The notes beneath the pieces were generated by a model. That model was not told the DNA's origin. It worked only from the letters and a program-made list of their open reading frames with translations, and did not search any database. Below, piece by piece: positions 33,028-39,404 of a DNA stretch of 39,404 nt (position 1 is its first letter; every line of letters begins with the position of its first letter). The position numbers were made by a program, and so were the translations under genes. The stretch lies in the NCBI GenBank assembly GCA_021158005.1, contig JAGGVN010000058.1:1-39404 (forward strand), given 5' to 3'. This DNA comes from Candidatus Aerophobota bacterium. Lineage in GTDB: Bacteria > Aerophobota > Aerophobia > Aerophobales > JAGGVN01.

Positions 33028-33058
33028 TTGACACCCGGGAAAATTATATTATTATAAT
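33028..33058 (+). promoter_or_regulatory. Promoter of the Fur-headed iron/Fe-S gene island
   Basis: A perfect TTGACA (33028-33033) and a perfect TATAAT (33053-33058) are 19 bases apart. The -10 box overlaps the start of a Fur box, the arrangement expected for direct repression. Confidence 0.6.
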
Positions 33059-33074
33059 AATGAAAATCATTATC
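33056..33074 (+). promoter_or_regulatory. Fur box
   Basis: AATAATGAAAATCATTATC matches the classic 19-base Fur consensus GATAATGATAATCATTATC at 17 of 19 positions and is palindromic around its centre. It lies between the -10 box and the fur-family start codon at 33103. I infer iron-dependent self-repression and control of the genes downstream. Confidence 0.78.
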
Positions 33075-33102
33075 AATATAATTGAAGATCAGGAGTAGAA
33101 AA

Positions 33103-33564
33103 ATGCCGGGGCCTCCTTGGAGTCATCAAAGATTAAGGAACAGGGGATTCCGGTTAACTTTGCCGCGGCAGGCAGTTTTGAATATCTTTAACCAGAATCC
33201 TCGGCATTTAACTGCCGAAGAGGTATTTTTCTTAGTTCATAGAAATTACCCCGGGATTGGTTTAGCTACTGTATACCGCACCCTGAATCTTTTAACTCAA
33301 ATGAGACTCATTCACAAATTTAACTTTGGTGATGGACGTAATCGCTATGAATTGGCTTCTAAATTTAAAAAGAAATACCATCATTTAGTCTGTGTGCAGT
33401 GTGGGAAGATAATTGACTATGATAGTCCTACAGAAAAAGAAGCAGATTCTATTAAAGAGATAGAAAAAGAGTTAGTCAATAAATATAAATTTAAAATAAA
33501 TTCCTATCAGATACATTTTTACGGAATATGCAAGGACTGTCAAAATAAGCAAGGAGGTGAGTAA
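33103..33564 (+). CDS. Fur-family transcriptional regulator
   Basis: A 153-residue metal-dependent repressor. The N-terminal winged helix reads FRLTLPRQAVLNIF, then HLTAEEVFFLV and GLATVYRTLNLLTQMRLIHK. The dimer part has HHLVCVQCGKIIDY and ends in YGICKDCQ, giving two CxxC pairs (C97/C100 and C143/C146) for the structural zinc. The ATG is set by an AGGAG site at 33091-33095; an upstream TTG at 33082 is less likely. Whether it senses iron (Fur), peroxide (PerR) or zinc (Zur) cannot be settled from sequence; the promoter site is of the iron-type Fur consensus. Its stop lies one base before the next gene's start codon, with the next gene's ribosome-binding site inside its own end. Confidence 0.9.
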   Translation: MPGPPWSHQRLRNRGFRLTLPRQAVLNIFNQNPRHLTAEEVFFLVHRNYPGIGLATVYRTLNLLTQMRLIHKFNFGDGRNRYELASKFKKKYHHLVCVQCGKIIDYDSPTEKEADSIKEIEKELVNKYKFKINSYQIHFYGICKDCQNKQGGE

Positions 33565-33565
33565 A

Positions 33566-33715
33566 ATGCCAAGAGGCTTTGGCAGAAGAGGTTTTTGGTG
33601 GCGAGGATACTGGGGATGGTATTCTTTCTATAGGCCATGGATACCTCGATGGTGGATGACTCCTTATCTTCCCTATTGGGCTCCTTATATTCCTTATGCT
33701 CCTTATTGGGTATAA
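33566..33715 (+). CDS. 49-residue Trp/Tyr/Pro-rich small protein
   Basis: A short gene starting at an ATG with an AAGGAGGTGAG site, placed one base after the fur-family stop. The product begins MPRGFGRRGFWWRGYWGWYS and ends in repeated Pro-Tyr units (PYLPYWAPYIPYAPYWV). About half of its residues are aromatic or proline and there are no cysteines. The MPRG start resembles the DUF5320-type proteins downstream (MPRGNGTGP, MPAGDGTGP). It has no signal peptide or plain membrane helix. The excellent ribosome site and operon position argue that it is a real gene; the function is unknown. Confidence 0.72.
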   Translation: MPRGFGRRGFWWRGYWGWYSFYRPWIPRWWMTPYLPYWAPYIPYAPYWV

Positions 33716-33759
33716 TTAGGAATTGAAAAATAATAAAAAATGAAGAGGAGGTGAAAAAA

Positions 33760-34029
33760 ATGCCACTGGGATTAGGTCCTGCAGGATGGTTTTTATACCC
33801 CGGGTTTAACCCTTATATAGGAAATCCATATTGGAGATATGGTTATCCCGGATACGGTTATCCCCTATATGGTTATCCCGGATACGGTTATCCCCTATAT
33901 GGATATCCCGGATACGGTTATCCAATGAGTAAAGAGCAAGAAAAAGCAATGTTAGAGCAGGAAGCAAAAGTTTTGGAAGATCAACTTACCCAAATTAGAA
34001 AAAGATTGGAAGAGCTTGGAGAAAAATAA
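33760..34029 (+). CDS. Small GY-repeat protein with C-terminal coiled coil (DUF5320-like)
   Basis: An 89-residue protein. It begins MPLGLGPAGWF, a variant of the GxGPxGxGP start seen in DUF5320 proteins. It then has an array of GYGYPLYGYP units (residues 28-54) and a charged helical tail EQEAKVLEDQLTQIRKRLEE at the C-terminus. The tail is similar to the tails of three other proteins in this island. The ATG at 33760 is eight bases after a GAGGAGG site; a GTG nine bases upstream is possible but overlaps that site. The middle is disordered or a flexible spacer, so the likely role is to hold a coil at a distance. Exact function unknown. Confidence 0.75.
   Translation: MPLGLGPAGWFLYPGFNPYIGNPYWRYGYPGYGYPLYGYPGYGYPLYGYPGYGYPMSKEQEKAMLEQEAKVLEDQLTQIRKRLEELGEK
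33841..33922 (+). repeat. Tandem 30-base repeat within a coding region
   Basis: Two identical 30-base units (33841-33870 and 33871-33900) and a third, partial unit with one changed base (33901-33922). Each unit encodes GYPGYGYPLY. The identity at DNA level points to recent slippage or duplication, so repeat number may vary between strains. Confidence 0.9.
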
Positions 34030-34069
34030 ATTTTATAAAGGATTAAAATTAATAAGGAGGTGATTATCT

Positions 34070-34330
34070 ATGCCAGCCGGAGATGGAACTGGACCCTTAG
34101 GGTTAGGACCGATGACAGGAAGAGCTGCTGGATATTGTGCAGGATTTCCTGTTCCTGGGTTTATGAACCCCTTAGGAGGAAGATTAGGCTTAGGCTTTGG
34201 ATGGGGTCGAGGTTTCTGGCCATACGCTTATTATGGTGCGAGAGGATTCTTCCCTCTACCCTATTACGGTTACAGGATGCCTTATGCTGGTTATGCTTAT
34301 CCTTATGGATATTTACCCAGAGTTTGGTAG
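34070..34330 (+). CDS. DUF5320-type glycine/tyrosine-rich small protein
   Basis: An 86-residue protein with the signature start MPAGDGTGPLGLGPMTGRAA followed by GYCAG, as in DUF5320 proteins of anaerobes. The rest is rich in Gly, Tyr and Pro (GLGFGWGRGF, YYGYRMPYAGYAYPYGY). Unlike its neighbours it has no C-terminal coil. It has one Cys. An AAGGAGGTGA site precedes the ATG. The family is generally found beside NifX-like and ferredoxin-ATPase genes, as here; its job is not known. A longer reading frame in another phase covers the same bases and is a shadow. Confidence 0.78.
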   Translation: MPAGDGTGPLGLGPMTGRAAGYCAGFPVPGFMNPLGGRLGLGFGWGRGFWPYAYYGARGFFPLPYYGYRMPYAGYAYPYGYLPRVW

Positions 34331-34374
34331 TAATAAATAGTTGGTTTAAATAATTATGCGAGGAGGTGAGTGGA

Positions 34375-34791
34375 ATGGGAGGATACGGTCATAGAAATAT
34401 GTACTATCTTACAGGATTACCGGGATGGATGAGATTTGGTTTTTCTCCAGGGTGGATAGGGAGAAGTCCTACAGGATTAGGTCCCGCGGCAAGTTATCTT
34501 ATGAGTGGCCAATGGCCAACTCCCCAAGCAGCGGCTTATTGGCAGGCTATGCAAGCAGGACAAGCATCTTATCCAGCTTTTGGGGGAGTCGGAGCTACAC
34601 CTTACAATTATCCACCAGCAGGAGGGGCTCCTTCTATGGGAATTTCTCCAGGAATGGCTCCATTTGGGCCCCAACCCGATCCCGAACAGGAGTTAAACTT
34701 CTTAAAAAATCAAGCAGATGCTTTGAAGAATCAAATTGAACAGATTAATGCCCGCATTAAAGAACTGGAAGAACAAAAAGGCTCAGGATAA
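34375..34791 (+). CDS. Gly/Ala/Pro-rich protein with C-terminal coiled coil
   Basis: A 138-residue protein. It starts MGGYGHRNMYYLTGLPGWMR, holds a TGLGPAASYL segment that recalls the DUF5320 start, and a long flexible part of Gly, Ala and Pro. It ends in a coiled coil, EQELNFLKNQADALKNQIEQ then INARIKELEEQK. The coil closely matches the end of the NifX-like protein encoded next (LQFLKNQAQVIAEQLEQINK). The GAGGAGG site sits eight bases before ATG 34375; the GTG at 34366 overlaps it. The product may dock to the NifX-like protein through the common tail. The function is unknown. Confidence 0.75.
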   Translation: MGGYGHRNMYYLTGLPGWMRFGFSPGWIGRSPTGLGPAASYLMSGQWPTPQAAAYWQAMQAGQASYPAFGGVGATPYNYPPAGGAPSMGISPGMAPFGPQPDPEQELNFLKNQADALKNQIEQINARIKELEEQKGSG

Positions 34792-34802
34792 TGAGTATAA
34801 CC

Positions 34803-34834
34803 AATAGGGGACAGGTAAAAACCTGTCCCCTATT
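34803..34834. terminator. Perfect 14-bp hairpin between the small-protein and NifX-like genes
   Basis: AATAGGGGACAGGT (34803-34816) and ACCTGTCCCCTATT (34821-34834) are exact inverted repeats around an AAAA loop. There is no T-run after the stem, so it could be a partial terminator, an mRNA stabiliser or an operator. GGGGACAGGT-type palindromes also occur as dispersed repeats in other genomes. It begins 12 bases after the stop of the preceding gene. Confidence 0.55.
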
Positions 34835-34913
34835 CAGAATAATTACGGGGTTGAAGGTTGCATAATAAAGTAAACTGAATTAAGATTACTAAATATAATC
34901 GTAGGGGGATTAT

Positions 34914-35495
34914 ATGAAAATAGCAATATCAGCTGCAGGACCAAATTTAGAGGATATGGTAGACCCAAGATTGGGACGCTGTCAATATTTAATTATTGTA
35001 AATCCAGAAACAATGGAGTTTGAGAGTATTCAAAATTCCAATACAGGAGTAATGCATGGAGCAGGTATTCAGACTGCTCAAATGATAGCCAATAAAGGCG
35101 CTACTGTAGTTCTTACCGGTAATTGTGGACCCAACGCTTTTCAAACTCTCTCAGCTGCAGGAATTCAGGTAATAACAGGGGTTAGTGGACAGGTAAAGGA
35201 AGCTGTGGAAAAATATAAAAAGGGAGAATTTCAACCCACCGCTCAAGCAAATGCCCCCTCTCATTTTGGAGGAGGAAGGGGTATGATGGGTGGTGGAATG
35301 GGTAGAGGTAGAGGAATAGGAATAAGTCAAGGAGGAAGATTTCAAACGACATCTTTTAGTGACGCAGAAACTTTAAGATCCTCTAATATGAGTAAAGAAG
35401 AAAAATTACAATTCTTGAAAAATCAAGCCCAGGTTATAGCAGAACAATTAGAACAAATTAATAAAAGAATTAAAGAGTTAGAAAAAGAAAAATAA
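34914..35495 (+). CDS. NifX/NifB-type iron-cofactor-binding protein with Gly-rich linker and coiled-coil tail
   Basis: A 193-residue protein. Residues 1-110 form the dinitrogenase iron-molybdenum cofactor domain: MKIAISAAGPNLEDMVDPRL, GRCQYLIIV, NSNTGVMHGAGIQTAQMIAN, VVLTGNCGPNAF and AGIQVI. Proteins of this kind carry Fe-S or metal clusters. A flexible linker with GGGRGMMGGGMGRGRG follows, then a C-terminal coil, LQFLKNQAQVIAEQLEQINK then RIKELEKEK. No nitrogenase genes are near, so a nitrogenase role is unlikely. A TATAAT-like box lies at 34894-34899 and a GTAGGGGG site precedes the ATG. The added tail is unusual for NifX-like proteins and matches neighbouring small proteins. Confidence 0.86.
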   Translation: MKIAISAAGPNLEDMVDPRLGRCQYLIIVNPETMEFESIQNSNTGVMHGAGIQTAQMIANKGATVVLTGNCGPNAFQTLSAAGIQVITGVSGQVKEAVEKYKKGEFQPTAQANAPSHFGGGRGMMGGGMGRGRGIGISQGGRFQTTSFSDAETLRSSNMSKEEKLQFLKNQAQVIAEQLEQINKRIKELEKEK

Positions 35496-35510
35496 TTAAA
35501 GGAGGAGAAA

Positions 35511-35699
35511 ATGCCCAGAGGAAATGGAACAGGCCCCTTTGGTGGAGGAAGAGGTAGAGGAGGCGGTAATCGGCCGGGTGCCGGTCCCGGCGGAAAATGT
35601 GTATGTCCAAATTGTGGAGCTACTGTCTCTCATCAAAGAGGGGTTCCGTGTTATCAGGTAAGTTGCCCTAAATGCGGAACTAAAATGGTAAGAGGGTAA
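35511..35699 (+). CDS. DUF5320-type small protein with a zinc-ribbon-like Cys cluster
   Basis: A 62-residue protein starting MPRGNGTGPFGGGRGRGGGN. The second half has two CxxC pairs, CVCPNCGATV and VSCPKCGTKM, which look like a zinc ribbon or rubredoxin-like knuckle able to bind zinc or iron. The glycine-rich start is that of the island's other small proteins. An AAAGGAGGAG site precedes the ATG. It ends four bases before the first ferredoxin-ATPase gene. I infer a metal-binding partner of the Fe-S machinery; the activity is unknown. Confidence 0.8.
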   Translation: MPRGNGTGPFGGGRGRGGGNRPGAGPGGKCVCPNCGATVSHQRGVPCYQVSCPKCGTKMVRG

Positions 35700-35703
35700 A
35701 GAA

Positions 35704-36540
35704 TTGATTATCTCAGTAGCCAGTGGTAAAGGAGGGACGGGGAAGACTACAGTAGCAGTCAGCTTAGCTTTATCCTTAGGTAATGATATTCAGTTCCTGG
35801 ATTGCGATGTAGAAGAACCAAATGCTCATATTTTCTTAAAGCCAAAGATTACTCGTATTCAATCTATCAATGTATTGATTCCTCAAGTAGACGAGGAGAA
35901 ATGCACCTATTGTGGGAAGTGTGCAGAGGTATGCTCCTATAACGCCATTGCTGTAATTAAAAAGAAAGTTTTGTTTTTTCCTGAACTTTGTCATCACTGT
36001 GGAGGATGTAGTCTTCTCTGTCCCCAGAAAGCTATTGAAGAAGTTCCTCGAGAAAAGGGGATAGTTGAAGAGGGAAGAGCTGGTTCTATTCATTTTCTTC
36101 ATGGAAGACTTACCGTTGGAGAAGCAGTATCTCCTCCTTTGATTAGAGCAGTTAAAAAATTTGCTCGTAAAGATAAGACTACTATAATTGATGCTCCCCC
36201 AGGAACATCCTGCCCTGTAATCGAAGCAGTCAAGGGAAGTGATTTTTGTGTTTTAGTTACCGAACCCACTCCTTTTGGTTTAAACGATTTAACTTTGGCT
36301 GTGGGAATGGTTAGAGAATTAAAGATACCTCTTGGAGTAGTAATTAATCGGGCAGATTTAGGAGATAAAAAAGTTGAGGAATACTGTTATAAAGAAAAAA
36401 TTCCTATTTTAATGGAAATTCCTATGGATAAAGAAATTGCTATAGCTTATTCTAATGGTGTTCCTTTAGTGGAAAGAAAACCCGGGTATAAAGAAAAATT
36501 TAAAAAGTTATACCAGAAAATTATTGAAGAAAGAGGATAA
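35704..36540 (+). CDS. ParA/MinD-like ATPase with inserted 2[4Fe-4S] ferredoxin domain (copy 1)
   Basis: A 278-residue P-loop ATPase. The deviant Walker A is [10 protein letters not shown] at residues 7-16, the switch region is DAPPGTSCPVIEA, and the C-terminal part is of the Mrp/MinD kind. Between the strands lies a bacterial-ferredoxin insert with two full cluster motifs: C67, C70, C73, C77 and C96, C99, C102, C106. Such proteins are frequent in anaerobes beside NifX-like genes; they are thought to pass electrons or clusters with ATP use. The start is TTG, four bases after the preceding stop, with an AGAGGG stretch nearby. It is clearly related to the following gene and probably pairs with its product. 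Confidence 0.9.
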   Translation: MIISVASGKGGTGKTTVAVSLALSLGNDIQFLDCDVEEPNAHIFLKPKITRIQSINVLIPQVDEEKCTYCGKCAEVCSYNAIAVIKKKVLFFPELCHHCGGCSLLCPQKAIEEVPREKGIVEEGRAGSIHFLHGRLTVGEAVSPPLIRAVKKFARKDKTTIIDAPPGTSCPVIEAVKGSDFCVLVTEPTPFGLNDLTLAVGMVRELKIPLGVVINRADLGDKKVEEYCYKEKIPILMEIPMDKEIAIAYSNGVPLVERKPGYKEKFKKLYQKIIEERG

Positions 36541-36579
36541 TGTTTTTAATTATTAGAAGTAGTTGAGAGGAAGTTTTTT

Positions 36580-37431
36580 ATGAAGCAAATTGTAATTATT
36601 AGTGGTAAAGGCGGGACAGGAAAGACAGTTATTACTGCAAGTTTTGCTGCTTTGGCTAAAAATAAAGTTATGGTAGATTGTGATGTAGATGCGGCAGATT
36701 TGTATCTTTTACTTCATCCAGAGATCAAAGAGACTTATGGATTTACAGGAAGAGTGGCAAAAATAGATGAAGATAAGTGTATTCAGTGTGGGAAGTGCCA
36801 GGAAGTTTGCCGATTTGAAGCCATAAATAACTTTATAGTTGACCCTATCTCTTGTGAAGGATGCGGGGTTTGCTCTTATATTTGTCCTCAAGAAGCAATT
36901 AAGATGAAACAACACCCTGCAGGAAATTGGTTTATCTCTGAAACTAAATACGGTCCATTAATTTTTGCAAAGTTGGGAATTGCTGAGGAAAATTCAGGAA
37001 AATTGGTGAGCCTGGTTAAACAAAAAGCAAAAGAGATTGCTCAAAATCAAAAAAGAAATTTTATTATCATAGATGGACCTCCAGGGATTGGTTGTCCGGT
37101 GATTGCCTCTTTATCAGGGGTAGATATTGCTTTAATTGTTACTGAGCCTACTCTTTCGGGTATTCACGATTTGGAACGTGTTGCTAAGGTTTCTTATCAC
37201 TTTGGTATTAAGACGAGGGTCTGTATAAATAAATATGATTTAAATCTTAAGATGTCGCAAAATATAAAAGATTTTTGTCAGACTCATAATATTGAGATAA
37301 TCGGCGAAGTCCCTTTTGACATAGTAGTTACTAAAGCTCTAACTATGGGTAAACCGGTAGTAGAATATTCTGATAATGAAGTTTCTTCCCGGATAAAGAA
37401 AATGTGGGAAAAGCTGGAAATTACTTTATAA
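36580..37431 (+). CDS. ParA/MinD-like ATPase with inserted 2[4Fe-4S] ferredoxin domain (copy 2)
   Basis: A 283-residue paralog of the preceding gene. Walker A is [16 protein letters not shown]. The ferredoxin insert has [18 protein letters not shown] and [18 protein letters not shown], so both [4Fe-4S] sites are complete. The switch segment reads [20 protein letters not shown] and the C-terminus [18 protein letters not shown]. Two such ATPases in tandem are usual in this gene neighbourhood and suggest a heterodimer. The ATG has an AGAGGAAG site. The start is 39 bases after the previous stop, so they are one operon. Confidence 0.91.
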
Positions 37432-37441
37432 GGAAAGAAAA

Positions 37442-38281
37442 ATGAAAAAGACAAATGATATATTTTCCAAACAAGAGGAACAAAGAAGAAAAATTAAAGA
37501 AAGAATGGAAAAAATTAAATACAAACTTCTCATTATAAGTGGAAAGGGAGGAGTAGGTAAGAGCACAGTGGCGGTTAATTTAGCTTATGGTTTACTCTTT
37601 CAGGGGGGAAAGGTGGGCATTTTAGATGTAGATATTCATGGACCGAGCATAGCTAAAATGCTCGGAATTGAAAATTGTCGATTATCCAGTTCCGATGATA
37701 ATATTATAGAGCCTATTAACATTACTCCTCATTTGAAAGTAATTACTATTGCTTCTTTACTTGAGAGCGTGGATACTCCGGTGATTTGGCGTGGCCCTTT
37801 AAAGATGAAATTAATCTCCCAATTTTTAGGGGACGTTAATTGGGGAGAGCTCGATTATTTAGTTATTGATTCTCCTCCGGGAACAGGGGATGAACCCCTG
37901 AGTGTGGCTCAACTTATTCCAGAATTAGATGGGGTAATAATTGTTACTACTCCTCAGGAAGTGGCTTTGCTTGATTCTCGGAAATCAGTTAATTTTGCTA
38001 AATCTTTAAAGGTTCCGGTGATAGGAATAATAGAAAATATGAGTGGACTTATCTGTCCTTACTGTGGGAAAAAAATTAATCTTTTTAAAAGTGGGGGAGG
38101 AGAAAAGGCAGCAAAAGATTTTAAAGTTCCCTTTCTTGGTAAGATTCCTATTGAGCCCGATATAGTAGAATCTACAGATAAAGGTAGACCTTTTATCCAG
38201 ACTTATGCAAAAACAAGGACAGCAAATTTGATGGAAGAAACTATAACAAAAATTAGGGGAATAGTAGAGAATAAAAAATAG
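37442..38281 (+). CDS. mrp: Mrp/NBP35-family Fe-S cluster carrier ATPase
   Basis: A 279-residue P-loop ATPase of the Mrp/ApbC type. Walker A reads [51 protein letters not shown] and [20 protein letters not shown] are hallmark segments. Near the C-terminus ICPYCGKK supplies the CxxC that binds a bridging [4Fe-4S] cluster in the dimer. Mrp proteins assemble clusters and hand them to apoproteins. It lacks the N-terminal DUF59 domain of longer Mrp proteins. It follows the second ferredoxin-ATPase by ten bases and shares its operon. It is cytoplasmic. Confidence 0.93.
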
Positions 38282-38303
38282 CAAAAATAGAGGAGGAAAT
38301 TAA

Positions 38304-38843
38304 ATGTTTGATTTAAGAGTGCGCAAATTCGGCGACCCTATTCTCAGAGAAAAAGCAAAATGGGTAGAGAAGATAACTTCTGAGGAAAGAGATTTATTAT
38401 TTTGTATGGCGAGGATAATGGCGGAAAATGAAGGAGTGGGTTTAGCGGCTCCCCAATTAGGCATAAATAAGAGGATTATTATTGCTGATACCGGGAAGAG
38501 CCTATTAAAGTTAATTAATCCTCAAATTTTAGAGAGAGAGGGAGAAGATCTTCTTTCTGAAGGGTGCTTAAGTCTTCCTGAAGTTTTTGTTCCCGTGAAT
38601 AGAGCAAGCAAGATTAAAATAGAGGGATTAAATGAGAACAAAAAAATAATAAACCTTACCATTGAAGGCTTCCTTGCCCGTATTATCCAGCATGAGATTG
38701 ATCACCTTAATGGAGTTCTTATTATTGACTATGCTTCTCCAGAAAGGAAGGAGAAAATTAAAAATAACTTAGAAAAAATAGCTAATCATACCAGAATGAT
38801 TCTTAAGGTAAAGGAGAAAAGGAAATATCAAAGGAAAATATAA
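38304..38843 (+). CDS. def: Peptide deformylase
   Basis: A 179-residue peptide deformylase, which removes the formyl group from new proteins. All three motifs are present: GVGLAAPQLG, EGCLSLPE and QHEIDHLNGVL, giving the Cys-His-His metal site and the catalytic Glu. These enzymes work best with Fe2+. An AGAGGAGG site precedes the ATG. Its usual partner gene fmt is absent; instead it lies inside an iron/Fe-S operon and overlaps the next ferredoxin gene by one base (TAATG). It has a basic C-terminal extension (KVKEKRKYQRKI). It appears fully functional. Confidence 0.95.
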   Translation: MFDLRVRKFGDPILREKAKWVEKITSEERDLLFCMARIMAENEGVGLAAPQLGINKRIIIADTGKSLLKLINPQILEREGEDLLSEGCLSLPEVFVPVNRASKIKIEGLNENKKIINLTIEGFLARIIQHEIDHLNGVLIIDYASPERKEKIKNNLEKIANHTRMILKVKEKRKYQRKI

Positions 38844-39130
38844 TGCTTAAAGTAAGAGAAGAATTGTGTATAGGCTGTGGTTTATGCGCCCGATCTTGCC
38901 CCACAGGAGCAATAAATATTATTTACGGTAAGGCACACATTGATGAAAAGAAATGTATTCGGTGCTACCAATGTAAGAGAATTTGTCCCCGAGGAGCAAT
39001 TGTTGAGATAACTGAACCTGCAGTTCCTGTTTCTTTAAAAACTCTTAAGAACGATGTTCAGAATCTTGAAAAGCAAATAGAGGAAATTTTATATAAGATT
39101 GAAGAGCTTAAAAGAGGAGCTCACAGGTAA
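38843..39130 (+). CDS. 2[4Fe-4S] ferredoxin with C-terminal coiled coil
   Basis: A 95-residue protein. Residues 1-55 form a ferredoxin with LCIGCGLCARSCPTGAINII and KCIRCYQCKRICPRGAIVEI, two complete four-Cys cluster sites. After a short Pro-containing linker the chain ends in a helix, LKTLKNDVQNLEKQIEEILY then KIEELKRGAHR, that resembles the tails of three small proteins upstream in the island. The gene starts at ATG overlapping the def stop by one base. I infer that it is an electron carrier for the ferredoxin-ATPases, perhaps bound to the NifX-like and small proteins through the tail. Confidence 0.9.
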   Translation: MLKVREELCIGCGLCARSCPTGAINIIYGKAHIDEKKCIRCYQCKRICPRGAIVEITEPAVPVSLKTLKNDVQNLEKQIEEILYKIEELKRGAHR

Positions 39131-39235
39131 AAGTAAGGAAATTGTCATAGATTTCTTTTTCCAGGGAACATCAGGAAATAAGTAATAGAAAGAGAGATAT
39201 TTTAATGATAATGACCAATCCAAGAGGAGGGTAGG

Positions 39236-39404
39236 ATGCAAATTAAAGTAATCTGTGATAATAGAATCTACAATGACAAGCTGGATATTTGTTGGGGATT
39301 ATCTTGTTTAATAGATGAAGTTCTTCTTTTTGATACCGGAGAAAGTGAAAAAGTTTTGCTTGGAAATATGCAAAAATTAAACGTCTCTGTGGAGAATATC
39401 TCTA
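39236..39404 (+). CDS. Metallo-beta-lactamase-fold protein, N-terminus (runs off the window)
   Basis: Only the first 56 codons are present. The frame opens MQIKVICDNRIYNDKLDICW and continues GLSCLIDEVLLFDTGESEKV. This is the start of MBL-fold hydrolases of the group that includes the ribofuranosylaminobenzene phosphate synthase-like proteins; the FDTG strand precedes the usual HxHxDH motif, which would lie past the edge. An AGAGGAGGG site precedes the ATG. MBL-fold genes of this kind are commonly near NifX/Mrp-type clusters. The 105 bases before it hold only a weak AT-rich hairpin (AAGGAAAT with ATTTCTTT). Confidence 0.72.
   Translation, partial: MQIKVICDNRIYNDKLDICWGLSCLIDEVLLFDTGESEKVLLGNMQKLNVSVENIS

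Follow-up and report, generated by a model that had tools for sequence, protein, structure and literature searches.

Two described systems bear closely on the locus examined here. In Desulfovibrio vulgaris the ORP complex comprises Orp3, Orp4, Orp5, Orp8 and MrpORP; Orp3, Orp4 and Orp8 co-purify and receive Fe-S clusters from MrpORP, and the orp operons code for two ferredoxin-MinD ATPases, a NifX-fold protein and Mrp (PMC6345978). IssA has the NifX fold and a cationic tail of Gly/aromatic composition that is proposed to wrap thioferrate. It is induced at plentiful iron and sulfur, forms homomeric particles, keeps iron and sulfide as thioferrate and is able to rebuild ferredoxin clusters, and an uncharacterised clade of non-thermophile NifX proteins with Gly-rich tails and high isoelectric point (pI) has already been named 'IssX' (PMC5524996). 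In addition, M. voltae growing on FeS2 senses Fe limitation, raises its IssA homologues and accumulates thioferrate-like Fe and FeS-like particles (PMC8516115). We analyzed a Fur-headed operon that joins such a core to small proteins of the DUF5320 family (PF17253). It occupies the end of contig JAGGVN010000058.1 of Candidatus Aerophobota bacterium, a metagenome-assembled genome of 1.77 Mb that is 92.5% complete; the whole contig of 39,404 nt is the window whose positions are used throughout.

The operon opens with a promoter and a Fur box, behind which come, in order, genes for Fur, for four small proteins (sp1 to sp4), for the NifX-fold protein and the zinc ribbon, for the paired ferredoxin-MinD ATPases, and for Mrp, peptide deformylase and ferredoxin, with the contig end falling within an open reading frame (ORF) downstream of the ferredoxin gene (Table 1). 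Every named gene lies on the + strand, and the intergenic gaps run from -1 to 122 bases, so that the row without long gaps described in a first-pass annotation of this DNA holds, and Pfam confirms its calls of Fur, the NifX-like protein, both ferredoxin-ParA ATPases, Mrp, peptide deformylase and ferredoxin. What found no support is its suggestion of a wholly undescribed system, since the core is the Desulfovibrio ORP gene set (PMC6345978) and Gly-tailed NifX proteins are known as 'IssX' (PMC5524996). With this core known, it is the DUF5320 link, the shared modules and the Fur control that appear to be undescribed in the open-access literature that we searched.

The likeness to the ORP complex extends to two MinD-type ATPases that each have two [4Fe-4S] motifs, a one-domain NifX-fold protein, an Mrp/NBP35 carrier and an anaerobic host. 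However, there are several differences. The ORP complex is controlled by sigma54, whereas the window has a sigma70-like promoter with a Fur box that is kept in relatives of the same order. MrpORP is a fusion of Mrp to a Di-Nase domain, while the Mrp of the window has no PF02579 match; NifX+Mrp fusions do exist at some related loci. The NifX-fold protein matches 2wfb in fold, yet falls off the ORP branch, where an Orp8-like Di-Nase protein would belong, and has a Gly/Arg tail and a coil, and the window adds DUF5320 proteins and a tagged zinc ribbon. Like IssA of Pyrococcus furiosus, the protein has its NifX-fold domain in front of a cationic, Gly-rich tail that is disordered, but the IssA tail has 14 aromatics in 70 residues against 3 in 50 here. 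Unlike in IssA or IssX, the tail also ends in a conserved coil that is shared with separate DUF5320 proteins, and IssA was purified without partners whereas this operon carries ATPases and a Fur box. Compared by described features, the protein fits IssX in its high pI and Gly-rich tail.

Most of the small proteins prove to belong with DUF5320. In the Pfam scan sp2 (34.2 bits), sp3 (60.4 bits) and the tail of the NifX-fold protein (39.1 bits) are all above the PF17253 gathering cut-off of 27 bits, sp4 is below it in the protein scan (24.7 bits) but above it in the genome search, and sp1 has no family match. The earlier description of these proteins as having no assigned role is thus superseded for sp2 and sp3, is borderline for sp4, falls for the 62-aa protein, which is a zinc ribbon, and stands for sp1. 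In other phyla DUF5320 is a single protein that starts with MPGGDGTGPxGMGPMTGRAAGYCAGYxVPG, continues with Gly/Arg/aromatic repeats, often RNWFYATGLPGW, and ends in a coil. For DUF5320, AlphaFold2 (AF2) predicts a chain that is disordered except for a single helix at the C-terminus. Going by sequence, the DUF5320 of the window is split and duplicated into an N-half (sp3) and C-halves (sp2, sp4), accompanied by the aromatic micro-protein sp1; the C-half is also held by the NifX tail. The DUF5320 family itself, although widespread in anaerobes, is without known function, and no functional paper on it was found in the open-access literature.

Linkage of DUF5320 to NifX is strong at the level of whole genomes. 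Among 290 genomes chosen without regard to NifX, DUF5320 is present in 95 (about one third) and PF02579 in 146, with 92 genomes holding both (odds ratio 80, Fisher p 1e-32); DUF5320 is also present in the control genomes of Thermotoga maritima and Methanosarcina acetivorans. The two genes lie within 5 kb of each other, always on the same strand, in at least 59 of 90 genomes, the distances making this count a lower bound. For a second sample we took 40 neighbourhoods on the strength of their DUF5320 gene only, and half of these were included for the lack of a NifX listed nearby. Co-occurrence rates were drawn from them in place of about 80 loci that had been found by NifX and coil patterns. These 40 neighbourhoods contain NifX in 35 cases, a ferredoxin-ATPase in 31, two or more ferredoxin-ATPases in 27, a zinc ribbon in 12, Mrp in 9 and Fur in 8. 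This supports the suspected association of the NifX and ATPase genes with the small proteins. Nor are the small proteins missing from most relatives, a finding that would have refuted the first-pass interpretation: synteny of the gene set extends across Aerophobota, where some relatives (G002) have sp1 and sp2 and in others these are missing or rearranged, and DUF5320 stands beside NifX in many phyla. Finally, COX1 is rare in DUF5320 genomes (5/95 versus 115/195), which also holds among NifX-positive genomes (p 2e-10) and indicates that the gene set marks anaerobes.

DUF5320 and the NifX-fold proteins are also linked by a shared module. A hidden Markov model (HMM) of the coil was trained solely on DUF5320 proteins from outside Aerophobota, with no NifX in the training set, and scanned on all ORFs of the approximately 80 loci. 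It matched 68 DUF5320 proteins and 26 of the NifX fold. No further real ORF was matched, and both control matches were reversed ORFs labelled as DUF5320. Within the window sp4 and the NifX coil are identical at 20 of 33 positions (61%), and among 28 aligned NifX proteins 20 have a Pfam DUF5320 match. Eight of the 26 coil-matched NifX proteins are further fused to a 2[4Fe-4S] ferredoxin, and at the sequence level this NifX-coil-ferredoxin fusion is a Rosetta-stone link. A second module is the N-terminal MPxGDGTGP tag, which is common to DUF5320 proteins (73) and zinc ribbons (21). The coil of the operon's ferredoxin and the tag on Fur are, judged by their sequences, only suggestive as shared modules. 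We did not take the coil of the ferredoxin for a proven DUF5320 module (pairwise BLAST 4e-5, Pfam 0.0018, missed by the coil HMM at 0.01), nor the tag for a general Fur feature, it being present at one locus (L038) and not significant by HMM.

The AF2 model of the NifX-fold protein (pLDDT 85) has a globular domain (residues 1-110), a disordered Gly/Arg tail and a confidently predicted C-terminal helix (residues 161-192). Its tail has a pI of 11.8 and contains 13 Gly, 5 Arg or Lys and 3 aromatics in 50 residues. The top PDB match of the domain is the D. gigas ORP protein 2wfb (TMt 0.91, 43% identity, E 4e-23), with 9ian_F and 1p90, which stand for the NifX/NafY chaperones, also among the structural matches but far weaker. 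Although ORP is the best PDB match, orthology to ORP was rejected on the tree, where ORP groups with short untailed paralogues apart from the window protein; this tree has few columns, moderate to rough support and a long ORP branch. Such untailed ORP-like paralogues share loci with tailed NifX proteins (L040, L042, L066). The window protein is also not near MTH1175, the sole IssA-clade member in the set.

Regulation of the operon appears to be by iron. The Fur box matches GATAATGATAATCATTATC at 17 of 19 positions, is the top site of the 39-kb window and has a score reached by 0 of 100 shuffles, bearing out the claim that the Fur gene has its own Fur box. In the order relatives a TTGACA-N16-TATAAT promoter (12/12) is present at the equivalent place in all five; a Fur box of 16-17/19 follows immediately behind the -10 box in four, and the fifth has one of 13/19. 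Since the Fur box directly adjoins the -10 box of a conserved promoter, the operon is predicted to be repressed by Fe-Fur and to be on when free Fe(II) is low, and this conserved footprint supports the proposed iron control of the row. In other phyla, where a locus includes the Fur gene, a Fur box usually lies shortly ahead of it, and some of these loci also have one before DUF5320 (L165, L168). The sole other Fur paralogue in the genome (contig C77) lacks the N-terminal extension that the operon Fur carries. Elsewhere, operon Furs carry N-terminal extensions rich in W, G and R, and the L038 Fur (L038:7370) starts with MMPFRDGTGPPWW, like the DUF5320 tag.

Ribosome-binding sites suggest that DUF5320 is made in quantity. 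Their median strength is -12.0 kcal/mol for DUF5320 genes versus -6.4 kcal/mol for ferredoxin-ATPases; at 62 of 65 loci the DUF5320 site is the stronger one (p 1e-11), and the DUF5320-type genes of the window have Shine-Dalgarno (SD) matches of 9-12 exact bases. Such sites would fit the dosage of a scaffold-like protein.

Our best reading is that of an ORP/IssX-like core to which DUF5320 has been added as an abundant disordered scaffold. Specifically, we give a probability of about 0.5 to a module, under Fur control in a strict anaerobe, that captures iron-sulfide or Fe-S clusters, keeps them and passes them on while the cell senses little free Fe(II), with DUF5320 probably helping to build the iron-sulfur holding scaffold. 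Fe-Fur bound over the start site would repress the operon until low free Fe(II) releases it, as its promoter layout suggests. The DUF5320-type proteins, whose Gly/Arg/aromatic chains are predicted to be disordered up to a terminal helix, would then be made in excess over the enzymes. By analogy to IssA they may co-assemble through the common C-terminal coil with the NifX-fold protein into a scaffold or condensate, inside which the NifX domain and its cationic tail would bind Fe-S material. As in the ORP complex, the two ferredoxin-MinD ATPases, Mrp and ferredoxin could load [4Fe-4S] units or release them to apo-proteins. The first-pass annotation had supposed an apparatus that may store, move or load Fe-S or other metal clusters, and the promoter layout speaks against plain storage of excess iron. 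The ORP, IssA and M. voltae precedents together favour such a holding and delivery module with a DUF5320 scaffold, and the low-iron state with FeS particles in M. voltae (PMC8516115) reconciles low-iron control with the holding of FeS.

Several points weigh against this proposal. IssA, which is homomeric and induced at plentiful iron, is unlike a Fur-repressed multi-protein scaffold, and Fe-S binding, coil pairing and particle formation at this locus are predictions. Many phyla, for example Omnitrophota, have a tailless NifX beside a full-length DUF5320, so that coil-to-coil docking is not universal. The presence of a Fur gene in only 8 of the 40 DUF5320-picked neighbourhoods makes Fur control a lineage feature. 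Finally, small genes in general could carry strong ribosome sites.

Four other explanations were weighed. Storage of excess iron and sulfide in the manner of IssA would have the NifX domain and cationic tail bind a thioferrate-like polymer, DUF5320 enlarge the particle, and the operon come on at ample iron, with Fur as an activator or with sensing of something other than free Fe. The high pI and Gly content of the NifX tail speak for this, and DUF5320 resembles in composition a free-standing tail of the IssA type. However, a Fur box right behind a 12/12 promoter in the order relatives is a repressor arrangement, the NifX domain lies away from MTH1175, the proxy used for the IssA clade, and its tail is poor in aromatics. 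Plain excess-iron storage was demoted from first choice by the promoter and Fur-box layout, and we regard it as unlikely. A complex of the ORP type, in which the NifX-fold protein would either bear a heterometal (Mo/Cu-S) cluster or act positionally together with the MinD ATPases, leaving DUF5320 as a structural accessory, draws on the best structural and sequence match in the PDB and on the paired ATPases and Mrp of orp operons (PMC6345978). This we consider improbable, as the tree joins ORP to the untailed paralogues and not to the window protein, and the sigma54-type and MrpORP-fusion features were not found in the window.

NifX and NafY are chaperones of nitrogenase cofactor precursors, and a NifX-like chaperone that serves one complex metalloenzyme other than nitrogenase, with the small proteins as delivery adaptors, would share their fold and suit the cluster-handling types of protein represented by Mrp and the ferredoxin-ATPases. 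The match to these chaperones is nevertheless much weaker than that to ORP, no PF00148 match is present anywhere in the 92.5%-complete genome (the lack of nitrogenase had been correctly called), and no single metalloenzyme among the families tracked, in a search that was not exhaustive, recurs beside the module. We hold this explanation to be very improbable. Least probable of all is that the small proteins, which are RGG-like and rich in aromatics, bind nucleic acid or act elsewhere and are merely co-transcribed with an iron-responsive cluster-maturation operon. An RG-rich motif of the G-quadruplex-binding kind has been pointed out in a DUF5320 protein of Hadesarchaea (PMC7565180), but the near-obligate genome-level and same-strand linkage to NifX over many phyla, and the DUF5320 coil covalently shared with NifX, point to a physical partner and not a bystander.

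Table 1. Features of the Fur-headed operon, in window positions.
Feature	Position	Strand	Remarks
Sigma70-like promoter TTGACA-N16-TATTAT	33028..33055	+	11/12 consensus
Fur box AATAATGAAAATCATTATC	33056..33074		begins directly behind -10 box
Fur-family regulator	33103..33564	+	PF01475 5e-33; short W/G/R-containing N-terminal extension
sp1	33566..33715	+	49 aa, 41% W/Y/F, pI 10.2; SD 10 nt exact; homologue in relative G002
sp2	33760..34029	+	GYPGYGYP repeats, then C-terminal coil (DUF5320 C-half); PF17253 6e-8, positions 37-99
sp3	34070..34330	+	DUF5320 N-half, MPAGDGTGPLGLGPMTGRAAGYCAG, no coil; PF17253 4e-16, positions 1-62
sp4	34375..34791	+	RNMYYLTGLPGWMRFG motif, then DUF5320 coil; PF17253 5e-5, 24.7 bits (cut-off 27)
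Perfect 14-bp hairpin	34803..34834	+	-24.6 kcal/mol, z -6.2
NifX-fold protein	34914..35495	+	PF02579 2.6e-23; PF17253 1.7e-9
Zinc ribbon, 62 aa	35511..35699	+	MPRGNGTGP tag; CxxC...CxxC; layout alike in >30 loci
Ferredoxin-inserted MinD/ParA ATPase 1	35704..36540	+	PF10609, CbiA, Fer4; 2x[4Fe-4S] insert
Ferredoxin-inserted MinD/ParA ATPase 2	36580..37431	+	PF10609, CbiA, Fer4; 2x[4Fe-4S] insert
Mrp/NBP35 Fe-S carrier ATPase	37442..38281	+	PF10609 9.6e-95; no Di-Nase domain
Peptide deformylase	38304..38843	+	TIGR00079 1e-43; syntenic in order relatives
2[4Fe-4S] ferredoxin	38843..39130	+	C-terminal coil, kept in relatives; Fer4 1e-17; weak DUF5320 0.0018
ORF cut by contig end	39236..39404	+	56 codons; previously labelled MBL-fold gene

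The corrected start codons are ATG 33566, 33760, 34070, 34375 and 35511 for the small genes and, most likely, ATG 33103 for Fur. The hairpin, which has no T run, divides the small-protein segment from the NifX-enzyme segment and may part transcript segments of differing stability; a repetitive element was rejected, as the genome has one copy. The 56 codons of the last ORF gave no Pfam match, leaving its metallo-beta-lactamase (MBL)-fold label unconfirmed. Positions 1-32906 hold, with translations judged by eye, ordinary metabolism and envelope genes, including Era GTPase, glutamine synthetase, SpoIID-like, penicillin-binding, alpha-2-macroglobulin-like and IolB-like proteins and oxidoreductases.

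Related loci provided further observations. Fusions of a NifX domain, a GRGM-rich tail, a DUF5320-like coil and a 2[4Fe-4S] ferredoxin are seen at L039, L050, L059, L069, L082, L089, L091, L095 and L098, and the hosts of NifX-ferredoxin fusions are Planctomycetota, Myxococcota, Fibrobacterota and sulfate reducers. A third tagged class consists of small proteins that open with MPRGDGTGPxGxGPxTGRGLGPCG and close with a stretch rich in Gly, Arg and Gln (L058:7449, L085:2533, L087:3395, L102:9109). In a relative without a PF02579 match (G007), a 35-aa ORF between ferredoxin-ATPase 2 and Mrp (L189:2904-3011, minus strand) comprises the DUF5320/NifX coil alone, and could be either a remnant or a stand-alone coil micro-protein. 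The genome of the window also codes for a second NifX-fold protein, untailed, of 118 aa and with an HFGRC motif (G000:C38:19428-19703, L001).

The Fur-headed, DUF5320-bearing operon is real, conserved and informative. A bolder and more tentative idea, which we offer as a possibility less likely than not, is that DUF5320 forms the matrix of an unrecognised iron-sulfide condensate in anaerobic bacteria and archaea, in which abundant disordered chains and a tailed NifX would be joined by the coil, zinc ribbons (perhaps also Fur) would be clients bearing the MPxGDGTGP tag, and the ferredoxin-MinD ATPases would do the filling and emptying. The tie of DUF5320 to NifX-fold and ORP-type ATPase genes provides a concrete hypothesis for how iron and sulfide may be handled in anaerobes without oxygen-dependent ferritin chemistry, and one that is testable in cultured genetic models.

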